Assembly: GCA_018052565.1 (NCBI GenBank)
Contig: JAGPNC010000006.1
Location: 1 to 48,061, forward strand
DNA from: Candidatus Shapirobacteria bacterium
GTDB lineage: Bacteria > Patescibacteriota > Microgenomatia > 0-14-0-10-38-17
Direction of reading: 5' to 3'
DNA length: 48,061 bases
In this document: positions 4,998 to 48,046 of the stretch, piece after piece
How positions within the stretch are numbered: position 1 is the stretch's first letter
Layout: each line of letters begins with the position of its first letter
Position numbers and translations under genes: made by a program
The notes under the pieces: model-generated
Database searches by the model: none
The model's input: the letters and a program-made list of their open reading frames with translations, nothing else
What the model was told of the DNA's origin: nothing

Positions 4998-5131
4998 AGC
5001 CATCAGGGCAGATCCTAACTTTCGCCAGAATGACACTTTCGTCAGCCCCATCGCAAATATTATTTGCTACGGGGTTAGGATGACGGATTATGTCCCCGCC
5101 ATAATACTTAATGCCTAATACTTAATACTTG
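4998..5131. repeat. Intergenic CATCCTGAC-type hairpin plus ACTTAATAC words
   Basis: GGCAGATCCTAACTTTCGCCAGAATGACA followed by CGTCAGCCCC...GGGGTTAGGATGACGG forms nested imperfect stems of the same family as the coding insertions in the GT2 genes (units GATCCTGAC/GTCAGGATG). It ends with CATAATACTTAATGCCTAATACTTAATACT. The neighbouring GT2 gene starts its stop codon right after it, so the spacer holds nothing else. Confidence 0.65.
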
Positions 5132-5132
5132 T

Positions 5133-6296
5133 TTAGGCAGATTTTGTCTTTCGAAGAATCTTTTTGATAAACTCTTTTAGGCCGAGATTGGCCTTAATTG
5201 CCGCAAGCATAATTTCTCTTTTAAAAGGCGGGTAGTTTTTCTTCAAAAAAATCGCCATTGAGGCAAAAAACTGGCGGTAATATTCTTCCGGCCGAGCCTT
5301 GCCTTTCTTCCAACTGCCGCCGCCAAGATGAATAATTTCGGCCTGAGGCAAAACCATTAATTTTTGTCCCATTTTTTTGGCCCGCCACGCCCAGTCAACA
5401 TCCTCAAAATAAAAAGGATAATCCTCATCCAAAAGGCCCACTTTTTGCCAAACTTTTCTTCGCGCCATCATTGCCGCCCCGGGCAGTTGGTCAACGGGGT
5501 AGGGGACTTTTTTTACCGGAAAGCAAATCAGGTTCACTAAAGGCGATTTCATCGCCAGCGGCCGCAGGAGACGGTTATGATAAAAAAATATCTGCCACAA
5601 ATTGGGAAAACGCATGTAATAATCAATTTGCGCCGAGCCGTCGGCATTTAAAAGCAGGGGAGAAACGCCGCCAACTTGAGGATTTTCCTCAAGATAGGAA
5701 ACCATCTTTTCCAAGGCTTTGTCCTTAACAATCGTATCAGAGTTTAAAAGCAGAATATATTTCCCCCGGCTTTCTTTAATCCCCTGATTATTGGCTTTGG
5801 CAAAGCCCAAATTATCGTTGTTAACAATGATCTTTAATTTTAAATTTTTAATTTTAAATTTTAAATTTTCAAGCATTTCCACGGAATCATCCTGGGAATG
5901 ATTATCAACGACAATAATTTCAGCAGAAGGCAGATCCTGACTTTCGTCAGGATGACGGGAAGAGGATTCAGGATGACAAGAGAGGGAGTCAGGATGACGG
6001 GAAGAGGATTCAGGATGACAAGAGAAGGAGTCGGGATGAAGGGAAAAGGAGCCAGGATGAGGAGAAGAGGGGTTAGAATGATGAGCTTGGAGACCGTCAT
6101 TCCGGACTTGCCCGCCTGCCGGCGAGGCAGGATCCGGAATCTGCGTTAAGGCAGAAAGCAGATCCTGACTTTCGTTAGCCCCGTACCGTTTCGGTATGGG
6201 GTCAGGATGGCAAGAGAGGGAGTTGATAACCGAGTTAAGGCATTGCTCCAAAAGCTCGCGGGTGTTATAGGAAAGAATAATAACAGAAAGAATCAT
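5133..6296 (-). CDS. Family 2 glycosyltransferase with a 96-residue repeat-derived insertion
   Basis: Rhamnosyltransferase-like GT2 of the GT-A fold, expected to transfer a sugar from a nucleotide donor in the cytoplasm. The N-terminal SVIILSYNTRELLEQCL strand and helix (residues 4-20), the EIIVVDNHSQDDS strand (126-138), LLLNSDT (DXD-type, about residue 185) and FEDVDWAWRAKKMG (catalytic base region) are intact. Residues 29-124 are foreign to the family: they contain SCHPESSSRHPD twice and HPDESQDLPS, encoded by the hairpin repeats that also lie in spacers here. A second Lys-rich addition (ENLKFKIKNLKLK) follows VEML. Without these the protein would be about 280 residues, normal for the group. 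Near-identical N-terminal halves occur at 27010 and 32460. Start ATG 6296 matches the family. Confidence 0.85.
   Translation of the reverse strand: MILSVIILSYNTRELLEQCLNSVINSLSCHPDPIPKRYGANESQDLLSALTQIPDPASPAGGQVRNDGLQAHHSNPSSPHPGSFSLHPDSFSCHPESSSRHPDSLSCHPESSSRHPDESQDLPSAEIIVVDNHSQDDSVEMLENLKFKIKNLKLKIIVNNDNLGFAKANNQGIKESRGKYILLLNSDTIVKDKALEKMVSYLEENPQVGGVSPLLLNADGSAQIDYYMRFPNLWQIFFYHNRLLRPLAMKSPLVNLICFPVKKVPYPVDQLPGAAMMARRKVWQKVGLLDEDYPFYFEDVDWAWRAKKMGQKLMVLPQAEIIHLGGGSWKKGKARPEEYYRQFFASMAIFLKKNYPPFKREIMLAAIKANLGLKEFIKKILRKTKSA
5925..6212 (-). repeat. In-frame palindromic repeat cluster inside GT2 gene (copy A, 288 bp)
   Basis: Encodes residues 29-124 of the GT2 protein. It contains several hairpin units, including CATCCTGACGAAAGTCAGGAT (stem ATCCTGAC, loop GAAA), a CCCCATACCGAAACGGTACGGGG hairpin, CCTGCCTCGCCGGCAGG, and a 42-bp unit (14 residues, SCHPESSSRHPDSL) present twice in tandem. 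Length is an exact multiple of three and no stop is introduced. Confidence 0.85.
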
Positions 6297-23114: not shown

Positions 23115-23221
23115 TTAAATTCAAAAGTCAAAAGGCAAAATTCAAAATTTCAAGTTAAAATTAAAAATTTTAAATTTTGAATTGTAATTTTAACTTTTTA
23201 CTTTTAAATTTTGACTTTTCT
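23115..23221. repeat. AT-rich hairpin repeat (TTCAAAAGTCAAAA type)
   Basis: Left arm of TTCAAAAGTCAAAA and TTCAAAATTTCAAGTTAAAA units, right arm of TTTTGAATTGTAATTTTAAC and TTTTGACTTTTC units. The arms can pair over about 45 bases with mismatches. It lies between two convergent GT4 genes, so it could also act as a two-way transcription end. Confidence 0.75.
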
Positions 23222-26240: not shown

Positions 26241-26918
26241 ATGAAAAAACTTTCTTTTTTTAAAAACTGGCCTCAATGGAAAAAAATTATCTATAGCCTG
26301 ATTTTTTTGATAAGTCTTTTTTATCTTCTTCTTCCCGCTCCCCCCGTCCCTCAATTAGGCCAAAATTTTCCTTTTGAAAAAGGTTTTATCAGCCAAATGA
26401 TGGGCGAGCCAGTGGCCACTTTTTATACCAACCAGGGTCAGGAGGAAGCCTTATCGTTTTTCCGAAAAAATTATTCTTTTAGTCCCTTTTTAAGCTTTCC
26501 CCTTTTTACCCAAAGAATTGATTATTTCCCCCAAGAAGCCAATGAGCTTATTAACGATATGCACGGCGCCAAAAACACCAGCTTTTTGGTCGAGCTTCGC
26601 CACCCCGGCCGGGAATCGCTCGTTATTAAAGGCTATGGAGAAACCAAACCGGAAGGAATGAGCCAAAAAGACCCCGGCAAAATAATTAGCTTTAAACCGG
26701 AGGACGGAAAAGAGTATCATCTGCAATTAACTCTTTACCAGATAAAAACGCCAATCGCAGCAAGGATTATTTTACTGATTCTTGTTTTTCTTTTAACACC
26801 CATCGTCTTTAGCTGGGTAAGAAAAACGATAAAAGAGATCGTGAGGGTTTTGCTAAAAAAACAAAAATCGCCAGATCGCAAAAGCAGGAAGCTCACGCTC
26901 AGTAAATTCAAAAGTTAA
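26241..26918 (+). CDS. Membrane-anchored protein of unknown function
   Basis: 225 residues: a basic N-terminus, one helix (about 17-33), an outside region of about 135 residues with a proline-rich start (LLPAPPVPQLGQNFPFEKG), a second helix (about 172-192), and a basic tail. No family is recognised; the outside part is mixed alpha/beta and has FFRKNYSFSPF, continuing to RIDYFPQEANELINDMHG. The last five codons (SKFKS, stop) are read from the AT-rich repeat that starts at 26904, so the natural C-terminus may once have been different. It lies among sugar genes and may be an accessory surface protein. Confidence 0.6.
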   Translation: MKKLSFFKNWPQWKKIIYSLIFLISLFYLLLPAPPVPQLGQNFPFEKGFISQMMGEPVATFYTNQGQEEALSFFRKNYSFSPFLSFPLFTQRIDYFPQEANELINDMHGAKNTSFLVELRHPGRESLVIKGYGETKPEGMSQKDPGKIISFKPEDGKEYHLQLTLYQIKTPIAARIILLILVFLLTPIVFSWVRKTIKEIVRVLLKKQKSPDRKSRKLTLSKFKS

Positions 26919-26996
26919 AATTCAAAATTCAAAAGTGCAATTCAAAAATTAAAAGTTTTTTTGCTTTACTTTTGAATTTTAACTTTTAACTTTTCT
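26904..26996. repeat. AT-rich hairpin repeat, part of a duplicated segment
   Basis: Almost identical to 32280-32379, including the preceding CGCTCAG and the following CTTTTCTACGCCATTTATC, so spacer and the start of the next GT2 gene were copied as one piece. It provides the stop codon of the gene at 26241. Confidence 0.85.
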
Positions 26997-27009
26997 ACGC
27001 CATTTATCC

Positions 27010-27975
27010 ATGAAACCATCTCAGCCTCTTTTATCGATCATCATCGTTTCCTACAACACCCGCGAGCTTTTGGAGCAATGCCTTAACTCGGTTATCAACT
27101 CCCTCTCTTGTCATCCTGAATCCTCTTCCCGTCATCCTGACGAAAGTCAGGATCTGCCTTCTGCTGAAATTATTGTCGTTGATAATCATTCCCAGGATGA
27201 TTCCGTGGAAATGCTTAAAAATTTAAAATTAAAACTTGAAAATTCAAAAAAAACTGAAAATTTAAAATTGAAAATTATTGTTAACAACGATAATTTAGGC
27301 TTTGCCAAAGCCAATAATCAGGGGATTAAAGAAAGCCGGGGAAAATATATCCTGCTTTTAAACTCTGATACGATTGTTAAGGACAAAGCCTTGGAAAAGA
27401 TGGTTTCTTTTATGGAAGAAAAAAGAGAATTTGCCATTCTTGGCCCCAAGCTTCTTAATGCCGACGGCACTCCCCAACCATCATTAGGAAAATTTCCCAC
27501 CCTAAAAGTAGTTACCGCCATGCTTTTTTTAGAACATTTTTTTCCCGCCTCGTTCTTGCGAGTCCGCTGGTCGCCTAAAAACGGCAGAGAAGGGGATTGG
27601 GTGATGGGAGCAGCTCTCCTTTTTCGGAGAGAAGTTTATGACAAAGTCGGCGGCCTTGACGAAAATCTCTTTATGTATATGGAAGAAGTGGAGTGGTGCT
27701 TTCGGGCTAAAAAGGCCGGTTTTTGCATCTATTTTTATCCGGAGGCAGAGATTATCCATCTTGGTCGCGGCAGTTCTAAAAGCGGCAAGAAAGAACCTAT
27801 CTTACAAATTTTCCGGGGACTTATTTATTTTTACCAAAAACACCAACCCCCATGGCAGCAAAAAATTCTTCTTCTTTTGTTAAAATTAAAGGCTAATCTG
27901 AGTTTTTCTCTCGGCGTATTAACTGGCAATTCCTATCTTAGAAAAACTTATGGAGAGGCTAAAAAAATCATTTAA
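27010..27975 (+). CDS. Family 2 glycosyltransferase with an 18-residue repeat insertion
   Basis: Rhamnosyltransferase-like GT2, 321 residues. LSIIIVSYNTRELLEQCL (residues 8-25), EIIVVDNHSQDDS, LLLNSDTIV (DXD-type), MGAALLFRREVYDKVGG and MEEVEWCFRAKKAG (base region) are intact. Residues 34-51 (CHPESSSRHPDESQDLPS) are the shortest form of the insertion seen at 5925 and 32559. A Lys-rich addition (KNLKLKLENSKKTENLKLK) follows VEML. Up to DKALEKMVS the DNA is nearly the same as the gene at 5133 (opposite strand); beyond that it is different. It overlaps the ligase-like gene by 26 bases. Donor unknown. Confidence 0.88.
   Translation: MKPSQPLLSIIIVSYNTRELLEQCLNSVINSLSCHPESSSRHPDESQDLPSAEIIVVDNHSQDDSVEMLKNLKLKLENSKKTENLKLKIIVNNDNLGFAKANNQGIKESRGKYILLLNSDTIVKDKALEKMVSFMEEKREFAILGPKLLNADGTPQPSLGKFPTLKVVTAMLFLEHFFPASFLRVRWSPKNGREGDWVMGAALLFRREVYDKVGGLDENLFMYMEEVEWCFRAKKAGFCIYFYPEAEIIHLGRGSSKSGKKEPILQIFRGLIYFYQKHQPPWQQKILLLLLKLKANLSFSLGVLTGNSYLRKTYGEAKKII
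27109..27162 (+). repeat. In-frame palindromic repeat inside GT2 gene (copy B, 54 bp)
   Basis: TGTCATCCTGAATCC followed by CGTCATCCTGACGAAAGTCAGG; the second half forms an 8-bp stem with a GAAA loop. Encodes 18 extra residues at the same site as copies A and C. Confidence 0.85.
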
Positions 27976-32282: not shown

Positions 32283-32450
32283 ATTCAAAAGTTAAAATTC
32301 AAAATTCAAAAGTGCAATTCAAAAATTAAAAGTTTTTTTGCTTTACTTTTGAATTTTAACTTGTAATTTTAACTTTTTCCGTCAGAGGCGCAGGCCAGAG
32401 GCCTGTCAGTCTCGGGCAGAGACCCGCCTTGGGCGGAAACTTTTCTACGC
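32280..32450. repeat. AT-rich hairpin repeat with a nested GC-rich hairpin
   Basis: Matches 26904-26996, but at 32380-32437 carries about 58 extra bases (CCGTCAGAGGCGCAGGCCAG...CCCGCCTTGGGCGGA) inserted before CTTTTCTACGCC. The extra unit has AGGCC...GGCCT and GGGCAGAGACCCGCC pairings. Confidence 0.85.
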
Positions 32451-32459
32451 CATTTATCT

Positions 32460-33638
32460 ATGAAACAGCCTCAGCCTCTTTTATCAATCATCATCGTCTC
32501 TTACAACACCCGCGAGCTTTTGGAGCAATGCCTTAACTCGGTTATCAACTCCCTCTCCCATCATTCTGACCCCATACCGAAACGGTACGGGGCTGACGAA
32601 AGTCAGGATCTGCCTTCTGCCTTAACGCAGATCCCGGATCCTGCCTCGCCGGCAGGCGGGCAAGTCCGGAATGACGGTCTCCAGCCTCATCATTCTAACC
32701 CCTCTTCTTCTCATCATGGCTCCTTTTCCCTTCATCCCGACTCTCTCTCTTGTCATCCTGAATCCTCTTCCCGTCATCCTGACGAAAGTCAGGATCTGCC
32801 TTCTGCTGAAATTATTGTCGTTGATAATCATTCCCAGGATGATTCCGTGGAAATGCTTAAAAATTTAAAATTAAAACTTGAAAATTCAAAAAAAACTGAA
32901 AATTTAAAATTGAAAATTATTGTTAACAACGATAATTTAGGCTTTGCCAAAGCCAATAACATCGGCATTAAAAAGAGTAGGGGAGAATACCTGCTTTTTT
33001 TAAACTCTGACACGATCGTCCCGCCAAAAACAATCTCCTTTATGCTTGATTTTATGAAAAAAAACCCTAAGATAGGAGTAGCTACTTGTCGGGTAGAGCT
33101 TACCGATGGTAAATTGGATGAGGCTTGCACCCGCGGTTTCCCCACCCCGTGGAATGCTTTTTGCCATTTTTCAGGTCTGGAAAAGCTTTTGCCCCATTCG
33201 CGCCTTTTTGCCGGTTATTATCTCGGCCATCTTGATCTTAACACCACCCACGAAATTGACAGTTGTGTCGGCGCTTTTATGCTCGTTCCCCGCCATGTTG
33301 GGGAAAAAATCGGTTGGTGGGATGAAGATTATTTCTGGTACGGCGAAGATATCGATTTCTGCTATCGGGTAAAAAAAGCCGGCTTCAAAGTCATGTTCGT
33401 ACCAGAAGTGAAAATTATTCATTATAAGGGCGCTTCTTCGGGAATTAAAAAAACTAAAAGTAAGGCTGACCTTAAAACACGGGAAAAAGCCATGCTCGCC
33501 TCAACTCAGGCAATGCGTATTTTTTACCAAAAGCATTACCGCGGAAAATACCCTAAACTAATCGAGAAAACCGTCTTTTGGGGAATTAACATGATTGAGA
33601 AGGCAAGGGTAAGAAAGATAAAAAGACAAAAGGGGTAA
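32460..33638 (+). CDS. Family 2 glycosyltransferase with an 82-residue repeat insertion
   Basis: 392 residues. LSIIIVSYNTRELLEQCL, EIIVVDNHSQDDS, LFLNSDTIV (DXD-type), SCVGAFMLVPRHVGEKIG and WYGEDIDFCYRVKKAG are the expected GT2 parts. Residues 34-115 are the insertion, containing DPIPKRYGADESQDLPSA, PDPASPAGGQVRNDG and SCHPESSSRHPDESQDLPS. The Lys-rich addition after VEML is identical to that of the gene at 27010. The DNA is near-identical to that gene up to GFAKANN; downstream the sequences diverge, so acceptor specificity probably differs. Basic C-terminus (RKIKRQKG). Confidence 0.88.
   Translation: MKQPQPLLSIIIVSYNTRELLEQCLNSVINSLSHHSDPIPKRYGADESQDLPSALTQIPDPASPAGGQVRNDGLQPHHSNPSSSHHGSFSLHPDSLSCHPESSSRHPDESQDLPSAEIIVVDNHSQDDSVEMLKNLKLKLENSKKTENLKLKIIVNNDNLGFAKANNIGIKKSRGEYLLFLNSDTIVPPKTISFMLDFMKKNPKIGVATCRVELTDGKLDEACTRGFPTPWNAFCHFSGLEKLLPHSRLFAGYYLGHLDLNTTHEIDSCVGAFMLVPRHVGEKIGWWDEDYFWYGEDIDFCYRVKKAGFKVMFVPEVKIIHYKGASSGIKKTKSKADLKTREKAMLASTQAMRIFYQKHYRGKYPKLIEKTVFWGINMIEKARVRKIKRQKG
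32559..32804 (+). repeat. In-frame palindromic repeat cluster inside GT2 gene (copy C, 246 bp)
   Basis: Contains the CCCCATACCGAAACGGTACG hairpin, CTGACGAAAGTCAGGATC, CCTGCCTCGCCGGCAGG and the CATCCTGAATCC/CATCCTGAC units. It is copy A without one 42-bp tandem unit. Frame kept (82 codons). Confidence 0.85.
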
Positions 33639-43655: not shown

Positions 43656-44192
43656 TTGAGGGCTAAACACTCCCCCAAGCCTCAAGACTATGGTCATATC
43701 CTCTCCGATACGGTCGAAGAGGTTATTGATGGGGTAAAGCGTTACTTTATGAGTGCTGTTGACGCCAAGTTTAAGTTTGCCTTAACCCTGGAATACAAGA
43801 ACATTACCGCCACCAACATGAAGGATTTCTACCTTAGATTTAAGAAGGTTTATCCCACCACCATCAGGATTTGGCAGTCAGATAATGGTTTAGAAAACTT
43901 AGGGGTGTTTGACCAAGAGCTTAAGAAGGAAGGCATTCCCCACCTTTTCATCTATCCCCACTGCCCTAAGATTGATACCTTTATCGAGAGATACAACCGG
44001 ACTTTGGAGGAAGAATGTCTTGATTACCACCTTGATGAGCTTATGGACATCAGACAAGGTAACCAGGTTTTGGCTGACTGGAATGTCTATTACAATACCA
44101 AGAGGAGGCACCATTCCCTGGGGCTTTTAAGCCCCATGCAGTACTTTATCGAAAAGGGAGGAATGTCGCATAAGTACTTGACTTATACATAG
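43656..44192 (+). pseudogene. Integrase-core (rve) transposase, N-terminus missing
   Basis: 178 codons from a TTG at 43656. The DDE core is present: VDAKFKFALTLEYKN (first Asp), WQSDNGLENLG (second Asp), and FIERYNRTLEEECLDYHLDE (Glu), followed by NVYYNTKRRHHSLGLLSPMQ, the usual end of IS3/IS481-type enzymes. The N-terminal helix-turn-helix part of about 100-150 residues is absent, and the sequence just upstream is repeat DNA, so the gene is truncated. The core looks intact in its catalytic residues. It may be a remnant or a second frame of a two-frame element whose first frame was lost. Confidence 0.75.
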
Positions 44193-44307: not shown

Positions 44308-46332
44308 ATGTTTTTTAAAGAGCGGCCACACGAAATTCATCTTCTTCCCCAAAAAGCAGAAGAACAAATAACTAAGATATTAGTACAAGCGGAAATCTTC
44401 TATAAACAATGTCTTGGAGATAAAAATGCGAGAGTCAGAGAGGCCACAGTCCTACTCTTAGGCGCCTTAGCCGAAAAGAATCCAAGAAGAGCTCTTCCTT
44501 TCTACATGCGAGGCCTTGAAAATGAGGAGTGGAGAGTCAGAGAGGCCACAGCCCGATCTCTAGACGCCTTAGCCGAAAAGGATCCAATAATAGCTCTTCC
44601 TTTCTACAGGCGAGGCCTTAGAGATAAGAGGGTAGATGTCAGACGAGCCACAGCCCTATCCCTAGGCACCTTAGCCGAAAAGAATCCGGAAAGAGCCCTT
44701 GCTCTCTGTGAAAAAGGCCTTAGAGATGAAGATTGGGTTGTCAGACGAGCCACAGCCCTATCCCTAGGCGCCTTAGCCGAAAAGGATCCAATAACAGCTC
44801 TTCCTTTCTACAGGCGAGGCCTTAGAGATGAGAGGGTAGATGTCAGAATAACCACAGCCCAATCCTTAGGCGCCTTAGCCGAAAAGGATCCGGAAAGAGC
44901 CTTTGCTCTCTATGAAAAAGGCCTTAGAGATGAAGATTGGGTTGTCAGACGAGCCACAACCCTATCACTAGGCGCCTTAGCCGAAAAGGATCCGGAAAGA
45001 GCCTTTGCTCTCTATATAAAAGGCCTTGGAGATGAGAATGCAGATGTCAGACGAGCCACAGCCCAATCCTTAGGTGCCTTAGCCCGGGCGAACGCAGAGA
45101 TAGCTCTTCCTCTCTACAGGCAAGGCCTTGAAGACGAAAGGGGATGGGTCAGAGAGGCCACAGCCCAATCCTTAGGTGCCCTAGCCCAGGCGAACGCAGA
45201 GATAGCTCTTCCTCTCTGTGAAAAAGGCCTTAGAGACGAAGAGGAATGGGTCAGACGAGCCACAGCCCGATCCTTAGGCGCCTTAGCCGAAAAGGATCCG
45301 GAAAGAGCCTTTGCTCTCTATATAAAAGGCCTTGGAGATGAGAATGCAGATGTCAGAATAGCCACAACCTTATCACTAGACGCCTTAGCCGAAAAGGATC
45401 CGGAAAGAGCTTCTGCTCTCTATATAAAAGGCCTTGGAGATGAGAATGCAGATGTCAGAATAGCCACAATCCAATCCTTAGGCGCCTTAGCCCGGGCGAA
45501 CGCAGAGATAGCTCTTCCTCTCTACAGGCGAGGCCTTGAAGATGAGGAGTGGAAAGTCAGAGAGGCCACAGCCCGATCCCTAGGCGCCTTAGCCCGGGCG
45601 AACGCAGAGATAGCTCTTCCTCTCTACAGGCGAGGCCTTGAAGACAAGGATGGGAGAGTCAGAGGGGCCACAGCCCGATCCCTAGGCGCCCTAGCCCAAG
45701 CTAACGCAGAGATAGCCCTTCCTCTCTACAGGCAAGGCCTTGAAAACAAAGATTGGGACGTCAGAATGGTCACAGCCCTATCACTAGGCGCCTTAGCCAA
45801 AGAGGATCCGGAAATAGCCCTTCCTTTCTATATAAAAGGGCTTGAAGATGAGAAGGTAGGTGTCAGAATAACCACAGCCCAATCATTAGGCGCCTTAGCC
45901 GAAAAGGATCCGGAAAGAGCCTTTGCTCTCTATGAAAAAGGCCTTAGAGATGATAATGTAGATGTCAGAATAGCCACAACCCTATCACTAGGCGCCTTAG
46001 CCGAAAAGGATCCGGAAAGAGCCTTTGCTCTCTATGAAAAAGGCCTTAGAGATGGTAGTGTAGATGTCAGAACAACCACGGCCCGATCCTTAGGCGCCTT
46101 AGCCCTGGCGAACGCAGAGATGGCTCTTCCTCTCTACAGACAAGGCCTTGAAGACAAAGATTGGGGTGTCAGACGAGCCACAGCCCGATCCTTAGACGCT
46201 TTAGCCGAAAAGAATCCGGAAAGAGCTCTTGCTCTCTATGAAAAAGGCCTTAGAGATGATAATGCAGATGTCAGAATAGCCACAATCCAATCCCTAGCTT
46301 ATTGTTTTAAACGACCTTCTAAAAAAAATTAA
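44308..46332 (+). CDS. HEAT-like repeat protein, 18 exact 34-residue repeats
   Basis: 674 residues. After a 42-residue helical cap the protein is an uninterrupted array of 34-residue units from residue 43 to 654, with a partial unit (655-674). Consensus: helix A VR.ATA.SLGALAEKDP, helix B ERAFALYEKGLRDE. The VR..A..SLG.LA pattern is HEAT-like, while the 34-residue period is unusual for HEAT. Two module types alternate irregularly: AEKDPE (units 1-6, 9, 10, 14-16, 18) and ARANAE/AQANAE/ALANAE (7, 8, 11-13, 17). DNA identity between units is high (102-bp period), so the array grew recently. Expected to form a solenoid for protein binding. Its frame stays coding-like past the stop, so it may be a truncated larger protein. 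No signal or membrane segment. Confidence 0.8.
   Translation: MFFKERPHEIHLLPQKAEEQITKILVQAEIFYKQCLGDKNARVREATVLLLGALAEKNPRRALPFYMRGLENEEWRVREATARSLDALAEKDPIIALPFYRRGLRDKRVDVRRATALSLGTLAEKNPERALALCEKGLRDEDWVVRRATALSLGALAEKDPITALPFYRRGLRDERVDVRITTAQSLGALAEKDPERAFALYEKGLRDEDWVVRRATTLSLGALAEKDPERAFALYIKGLGDENADVRRATAQSLGALARANAEIALPLYRQGLEDERGWVREATAQSLGALAQANAEIALPLCEKGLRDEEEWVRRATARSLGALAEKDPERAFALYIKGLGDENADVRIATTLSLDALAEKDPERASALYIKGLGDENADVRIATIQSLGALARANAEIALPLYRRGLEDEEWKVREATARSLGALARANAEIALPLYRRGLEDKDGRVRGATARSLGALAQANAEIALPLYRQGLENKDWDVRMVTALSLGALAKEDPEIALPFYIKGLEDEKVGVRITTAQSLGALAEKDPERAFALYEKGLRDDNVDVRIATTLSLGALAEKDPERAFALYEKGLRDGSVDVRTTTARSLGALALANAEMALPLYRQGLEDKDWGVRRATARSLDALAEKNPERALALYEKGLRDDNADVRIATIQSLAYCFKRPSKKN
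44434..46269 (+). repeat. 102-bp tandem repeat array (18 units)
   Basis: Each unit contains GTCAG(A/G)...GCCACAGCCC(T/G)ATC, GGCGCCTTAGCC and either AAAAGGATCCGGAAAGAGCC or a CGGGCGAACGCAGAGATAGC block, then CTCTCTA. There is no insertion or deletion between units. Confidence 0.9.
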
Positions 46333-47482: not shown

Positions 47483-48046
47483 TCATTCGGTTGAAGCCAT
47501 TGGTATCCTGACGGCCCAACAGCAGAAAAAGCAAACTAATAAAAAGAAATTCTTTATAAAATTTTTGGTTCGGGGGTATTGTGTCAACACATTGTCTCCA
47601 CTCCAAGGGTCTAATTCCACCGCCGCCTCATCTAATATAATCGGGCGAGCAAAACGTATTTTATCATCAGCCTCTGGTAGTTTTCTCTTTAGATATGGGT
47701 AGGGTGTTTGATAGTCTAGGGCTGAATACTCCCGAATATTGTTGTCGTAGTAAAGATAGCTCAAGGCTTCCTCCAAAAGGTCATCTTCGCTTTTGATCTT
47801 CAAGATTCTGGAAATGAAAAACTCTCCATCATCAGCCCGGGGAGATCTTTTTAAATAAGCATTCTCTTCCGGATGAACCTTGTAATTCTGGATCAACCTA
47901 AAACCAAGACCGGCAATCAGTCTTCTTAATTCTTTTACCTTAAGCCACGATTTACCGCCGAACTCTTCTCCATTATCAGCGTAAAGATAATCTGGTAAGT
48001 TACTCCGTGGGATCTTAACCAGGAGATTACCCAAAGATACCAGCGA
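47483..48046 (-). pseudogene. rve transposase remnant, 5' truncated and catalytically altered
   Basis: The frame opens after TAA/TAG near the right edge (first possible start TTG 48034). YADNGEEFGGKSWLKVKELR holds the second catalytic Asp; KVHPEENAYLKRSPRADDGE corresponds to the E-containing block, usually EENAHLERSHRTDDEE in this group, so the catalytic Glu is replaced by Lys. LSYLYYDNNIREYSALDYQT follows. The C-terminal end (about the last 35 residues, KNFFLLVCFFCCWAVRIP) is out of character and joins foreign DNA. It is a different subfamily from the remnant at 43656. The N-terminal half is lost by stops just inside the window. Confidence 0.75.

Follow-up and report, generated by a model that had tools for sequence, protein, structure and literature searches.

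CGTC-like palindromic repeats encode part of a loop in three mosaic GT2 glycosyltransferases of Candidatus Shapirobacteria

How does a glycosyltransferase come to carry a hundred residues at a site where its relatives have only a short loop? This question is raised by a gene, hereafter gene A, in a 48,061-nucleotide stretch of a Candidatus Shapirobacteria genome (contig JAGPNC010000006.1, positions 1 to 48,061; hereafter the window). The product of gene A belongs to the GT2 family, as indicated by a Pfam match and by the GT-A fold of its AlphaFold model, which Foldseek places with WrtF, RmlT and GalNAc-T2. A loop of 102 residues (about 24-125) separates helix 1 (RELLEQCLNSV) from strand 2 (EIIVVDN). 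A previous reading of the DNA letters (the sequence-only reading) described an insert in the catalytic domain, with an open frame, a length that is a multiple of three and no stop; the sequence and reading frame bear this out.

5133..6296, minus strand: GT2 glycosyltransferase gene A, 387 aa, Pfam Glycos_transf_2 (2.6e-25)
5930..6212, minus strand: REP-derived in-frame insert of gene A, in the alpha1-beta2 loop (loop 1), loop residues 24-125
5835..5870, minus strand: loop 2 (alpha2-beta3) of gene A, an A/T-rich AAAATTTAAAATT repeat that is also carried by spacers

The repeat in loop 2 is a separate matter. Repeats of the AAAATTTAAAATT type encode the peptide LKFKIKNLKLK in the alpha2-beta3 loop of GT2 genes (5835-5870, 27218-27276 and 32860-32918), and also occupy spacers near 23137, 26917, 32294 and 36417.

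A genome search identified two close paralogues of gene A, both within the window and both with an insert at the same site (genes B and C). In 90 orthologues of gene B, a sample ranked by similarity to that gene and not picked by length, loop 1 has a median length of 11 and a maximum of 30 residues, compared with 102, 24 and 88 residues in genes A, B and C, so that the family does have only a short loop here, as had been claimed. None of the sampled orthologues of genes A, B and C has the insert, and a genome of the same family (G002) has an uninterrupted loop of 11 residues at the insertion site. The alternative that the insert is a genuine domain can be rejected: a search for an alignable counterpart of 80-100 residues found none in the 90 orthologues or in distant GT2s. 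A scan of genome contigs for near relatives returned distant GT2s only. Gene A thus presents a feature expected of a Rickettsia-like palindromic element, namely an in-frame insertion into an otherwise intact conserved gene whose orthologues lack it.

What is the insert made of? In reading order it runs from unit 1 (6212-6158) through an opposed unit 2 (6144-6095) and a series of half-units (6093-5947) to a terminal REP (5957-5930).

6158..6212, minus strand: REP unit 1, whose loop contains a further small palindrome, CCCATACCGAAACGGTACGGGG; 20 bits with the R1 covariance model
6095..6144, plus strand: REP-like unit 2 in opposite orientation, a G+C-rich nested palindrome; recognized from its sequence and a weak model match of 8.6 bits
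5947..6093, minus strand: tandem array of seven 21-bp half-units, each TCATCCTGA plus a pyrimidine-rich spacer
5930..5957, minus strand: terminal complete CGTC REP, 47.1 bits, E 2.8e-14

Units 1 and 2 form a dimer with their untagged ends facing, and the counterpart of unit 2 in gene C (32627-32676) scores higher with the covariance model than that in gene A (14.1 vs 8.6 bits). The idea that the insert is built of hairpins therefore stands for the dimer and the terminal REP; the rest is an array of 21-bp half-sites, whose pyrimidine-rich spacer resembles the host codons ACTCCCTCTCT. Within the window, GATCCTGAC occurs 5 times vs 0.11 expected, and CGTCATCCTGA, allowing at most one mismatch, 10 times vs 0.21 expected. 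In the GT2 frame the REP reads CGT CAT CCT GAC GAA AGT CAG GAT CTG, that is RHPDESQDL, and HPDESQDLPSAEIIVVDN is a segment of the peptide encoded by the insert. No target-site duplication could be defined at the insert ends.

Aligned units have the form CGTC-ATCCTGAC-GAAA-GTCAGGAT-CTG. Most of the 26 units in alignment A2 start with CGTC or TGTC, corresponding to the unpaired tag of the CGTC REP superfamily. The stem ATCCTGAC/GTCAGGAT and the loop GAAA agree with the 8-9 bp stem with AT at the first two positions and the 4-5 base loop of that superfamily, and a short unpaired tail is present, its common letters being CTG (the 3-base tail of the superfamily is mostly CCA). The palindrome is maintained by compensatory change (11 cells vs 4.4 in shuffles, with none of 500 shuffles as high). 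At least 28 copies with up to 3 mismatches are present in the 840-kb genome according to pattern and model searches only, compared with 0 for a control pattern; they are dispersed and mostly intergenic (23 of the 28 lie outside genes), which is again typical of CGTC REPs. Opposed dimers are common, with untagged ends facing each other. The sequence-only reading had also placed the repeat in spacers, and the covariance model confirms a copy at each of the two places named.

5008..5035, minus strand: spacer REP copy, 37.4 bits
43489..43516, plus strand: spacer REP copy, 35.5 bits

Two integrase-core-like reading frames (43656-44192 and 47483-48034, with motifs such as QSDNGLENLG) lie near a spacer REP, and positions 44308-46332 encode a 674-residue protein in which HEAT-like repeats (EKDPERAFALYEKGLRDE...VRRATARSLGALA) recur many times and very regularly.

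Of the 351 genomes of the class, 109 contain the repeat family according to the covariance model, by which up to 21 candidates were scored per genome; the family member G001 has at least 21 copies. The REP-associated transposase domain PF01797 (Y1_Tnp) is absent from the present genome, which is 96% complete. This agrees with the CGTC superfamily, which is not associated with RAYT transposases, and argues against mobilization by a RAYT encoded in the genome itself. A GTAG REP/RAYT system does not fit either, since the tag is CGTC and there is no Y1_Tnp. The REP is therefore only presumed to be mobile, since the genome yielded no match to the REP-associated kind of transposase.

It had been proposed that the family may target coding sequence, but the placement of the copies argues against this. 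Only 5 of the 28 copies lie inside genes, in the three GT2 genes and in two argS genes on two contigs, whereas about 24 genic copies would be expected at a coding density of 87%. With such strong depletion targeting is rejected; yet several genes carry the repeat, so insertion into genes is rarer than chance but recurrent. Other genomes of the class have in-frame copies in recG, pheT, a GATase_3 gene, a GT4 gene, tgt and a Wzy_C gene. One such pheT has two separate REP insertions, at residues about 66-91 and near SNDVILNSFQDPRKIPDQVRND. The two argS genes of the present genome are near-identical yet distinct, each with an in-frame REP (DSDFRQND), and represent either a duplication or two strains within the assembly.

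Next comes the question of how three genes acquired an insert at the same site. The relevant features are as follows.

27010..27975, plus strand: GT2 gene B (321 aa), with a 24-residue loop at the shared insert site
27109..27157, plus strand: one half-unit and the terminal CGTC REP of gene B (covariance model)
32460..33638, plus strand: GT2 gene C (392 aa), with an 88-residue loop at the shared insert site
32559..32799, plus strand: REP set of gene C, comprising a dimer (32559-32613, plus; 32627-32676, minus), half-units and a terminal REP (32772-32799)
5700..6269, minus strand: putative converted tract of gene A; identity with gene B is about 95-96% when indels are left out and 45-47% past either end
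32302..32962, plus strand: tract that gene C and its upstream spacer have in common with gene B, 99.2% identical in the coding part, 93.8% upstream and 62% just beyond
26905..27316, plus strand: counterpart of this tract in gene B and the spacer preceding it, from the DNA comparison with gene C

Between the SYNT and AKANN motifs, DNA identity outside indels is 96% for A-B, 95% for A-C and 99.2% for B-C. The breakpoints are sharp: just past this tract the two pairs that include C are only 58-63% identical, and A-B falls to 47% another 96 bases on. The upstream spacer, 94% identical, is common to B and C; gene A has no such spacer. At the protein level, the N-terminal halves of A, B and C are 90-97% identical and the C-terminal halves 29-38%. 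Each C-terminal half resembles its own orthologue group (56% for A, 52% for B and 65% for C) more than the other groups (at most 34%), and the N-terminal halves of the three orthologue groups are only 52-61% identical to each other. Moreover, B-type and C-type genes lie about 5 kb apart in several genomes of the class, as in the window. The combination of near-identical N-terminal halves with C-terminal halves from separate orthologue groups indicates that the N-terminal halves of old paralogues were overwritten within this lineage. One insertion has thus probably spread among three GT2 genes by gene conversion. A further observation concerns the spacer before gene C, where positions 32375-32440 hold the G+C-rich palindromes CAGGCCAGAGGCCTG, GTCTCGGGCAGAGAC and CCGCCTTGGGCGG; this set is lacking in the spacer before gene B, which is otherwise 94% identical, giving a natural filled/empty site.

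The explanation that we prefer, and consider very probable, is a single REP insertion into a permissive GT2 loop, with growth by dimer formation and slippage, spread by gene conversion and no selected function. The starting event would have been a single in-frame insertion of a dispersed CGTC-tagged REP, mobilized in trans, into the alpha1-beta2 surface loop of a GT2 gene, a loop that tolerates changes in length. Two circumstances would have let the enzyme tolerate it: the loop is not part of the catalytic core, and the repeat can be read through in the frame concerned. The insert would have grown by a dimer and by slippage of the 21-bp half-units, whose spacer is similar to host codons. Homologous recombination would then have copied the N-terminal half, together with the insert, into two other GT2 paralogues, which kept their own C-terminal halves, and the lengths of the three loops would have diverged afterwards. 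The encoded peptide would be a passenger, translated but without a selected function.

Could the repeat instead act as nucleic acid, either as an mRNA hairpin tuning translation or decay or as a recombination site for GT2 exchange, with the peptide a side effect? Strong hairpins are predicted for the repeats, the three carrier genes exchanged sequence around them, and REPs are thought to work as RNA elements (PMC3733652). However, G002 shows GT2 N-half exchange of the same kind: its GT2 genes have in common one tract of 153 nt (98%) and another of 149 nt (95%), neither of which contains a REP; one of the compared genes is partly masked by N. The paralogues concerned in G002 (L072, L075 and L148) have undergone their own exchange independently of REPs. 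A REP is therefore unnecessary for such exchange, which weakens the case for it as a necessary cause of the conversion, and we regard a nucleic-acid role as unlikely.

As to the protein, the AlphaFold model of A (from a 10-row alignment) has a mean pLDDT of 75; most of the GT-A core scores above 90, and residues 30-122 almost throughout score below 50. The prediction therefore supports the earlier suggestion that the insert adds a disordered loop to an intact core. The model has the beta-alpha-beta order, with the insert leading into strand 2. By the established topology of GT-A folds, the nucleotide site lies at the opposite edge of the sheet from the place where the alpha1-beta2 loop joins this strand. 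The insert is thus probably away from the donor site, judging from fold topology, and the earlier placement near that site is probably wrong. Comparison of genes A and C revealed 6 synonymous and 0 nonsynonymous substitutions in the structured tract vs 6 and 8 in the insert (Fisher one-sided p 0.024, or 0.0097 with loop 2; substitutions are few). These small numbers suggest purifying selection on the flanks and weak constraint on the insert, for which pN/pS is about 0.4.

The same loops have received insertions elsewhere. Among the 90 orthologues, 15 of 16 insertions of at least 10 residues fall in loop 1 (5) or loop 2 (10). Seven of the genes (L080, L091, L217, L222, L233, L079 and L192) have palindromes or simple repeats in these insertions, and four (L083, L084, L086 and L087) have what looks like ordinary loop variation. 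A further 20 genes were chosen for long reading frames and are thus a biased sample. One of them, in genome G241 (L171), has its loop 1 occupied by a REP dimer, TGTCATTCCCGCGAAGGCGGGAAT..., of which that genome contains 49 copies. Another, in G008 (L178), has AGATCCTTCGCT...CAGGATGAC in loop 1, as does L222 of G032 from the ranked sample; there are 3 copies of this sequence in the G008 genome and 5 in G032. From their sequences, REPs or other palindromes appear to have entered the same two GT2 loops independently in other genomes of the class. A wider idea, doubtful but worth stating, is that the alpha1-beta2 and alpha2-beta3 loops may be recurrent landing sites of mobile palindromes and that repeated conversion of the N-terminal half may yield new combinations of glycosyltransferase halves, the two together reshaping surface-glycan enzymes. 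The evidence for landing sites is suggestive and drawn from GT2 loops alone.

These observations also bear on the possibility that selection has kept the insert as a disordered Ser/His/Pro arm, useful in three enzymes for binding a partner, a membrane or a glycan. All three genes, which belong to one surface-polysaccharide locus, have kept it open and in frame, and its pN/pS is below 1. On the other hand, sampled orthologues of all three genes do without it, its loop ranges from 24 to 102 residues, nonsynonymous changes are concentrated in it, its sequence is that of the spacer repeat, and unrelated repeats occupy the same loops in other genomes. We consider a functional arm very unlikely. Finally, a recent duplication of three whole genes followed by fast divergence of the C-terminal halves, for which the common N-terminal half and the upstream spacer common to B and C might speak, is extremely improbable, given that the C-terminal halves fall into three separate orthologue groups of the class and that the spacing of B-type and C-type genes recurs in several genomes.

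Rickettsia is the best-known source of protein-coding palindromes. The case described here, probably explained by insertion and gene conversion, extends the phenomenon to a new branch of bacteria, where it is common in a small-genome class and reaches core genes (argS, recG, pheT and tgt). In such genomes, repeat-coded loops that serve no selected function have to be allowed for when genes are annotated and structures predicted. That the same two GT2 loops are used repeatedly amounts to a natural insertion-tolerance experiment, and the three mosaic genes suggest that gene conversion can carry a selfish insertion among paralogues and reassort glycosyltransferase halves.

How does the repeat relate to known systems? 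REPs in coding sequence are already known in Rickettsia and others (PMC3733652, PMC10969869). The open literature searched yielded no REPs or palindromes for CPR/Patescibacteria and no mention of the encoded peptides, which is weak evidence of absence. By its sequence the repeat behaves like, and appears to fit, the known CGTC REPs, a group that contains Rickettsia RPE-4 and RPE-6. Its closest likeness is to CGTC-1 (Di Nocera 2013, PMC3733652), which has a CGTC or TGTC tag, an 8-bp stem starting with AT, a 4-base loop and a 3-base tail, forms dimers, includes intragenic copies encoding tens of residues and, like CGTC REPs in general, has no dedicated transposase. It differs from CGTC-1 in that the tail is CTG and not the reported consensus CCA, that untagged ends face each other whereas that survey reports HH dimers as the prevailing form, that it occurs in a small-genome class apparently outside the survey, and that it has spread among paralogues, probably by gene conversion.

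The proposed likeness to Rickettsia palindromic elements is also upheld, since the anatomy matches the superfamily that includes RPE-4 and RPE-6 (PMC3733652); RPE-1 is longer. In both cases palindromes lie in frame in conserved genes and the protein apparently tolerates them (PMC3733652; PMC10969869). In contrast to Rickettsia, lineage and sequence are different, about one-fifth of the copies are genic and several repeats are clustered in one enzyme loop. A parallel to the recurrent site is provided by recB of two Xanthomonas species, where different REPs occupy about the same site of one gene (PMC3733652), whereas here the recurrent site consists of two GT2 loops across several families of the class. 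As far as the literature searched shows, the new elements are the frequency of coding REPs in a small-genome class, their clustering in two GT2 loops and their probable spread among paralogues by conversion.
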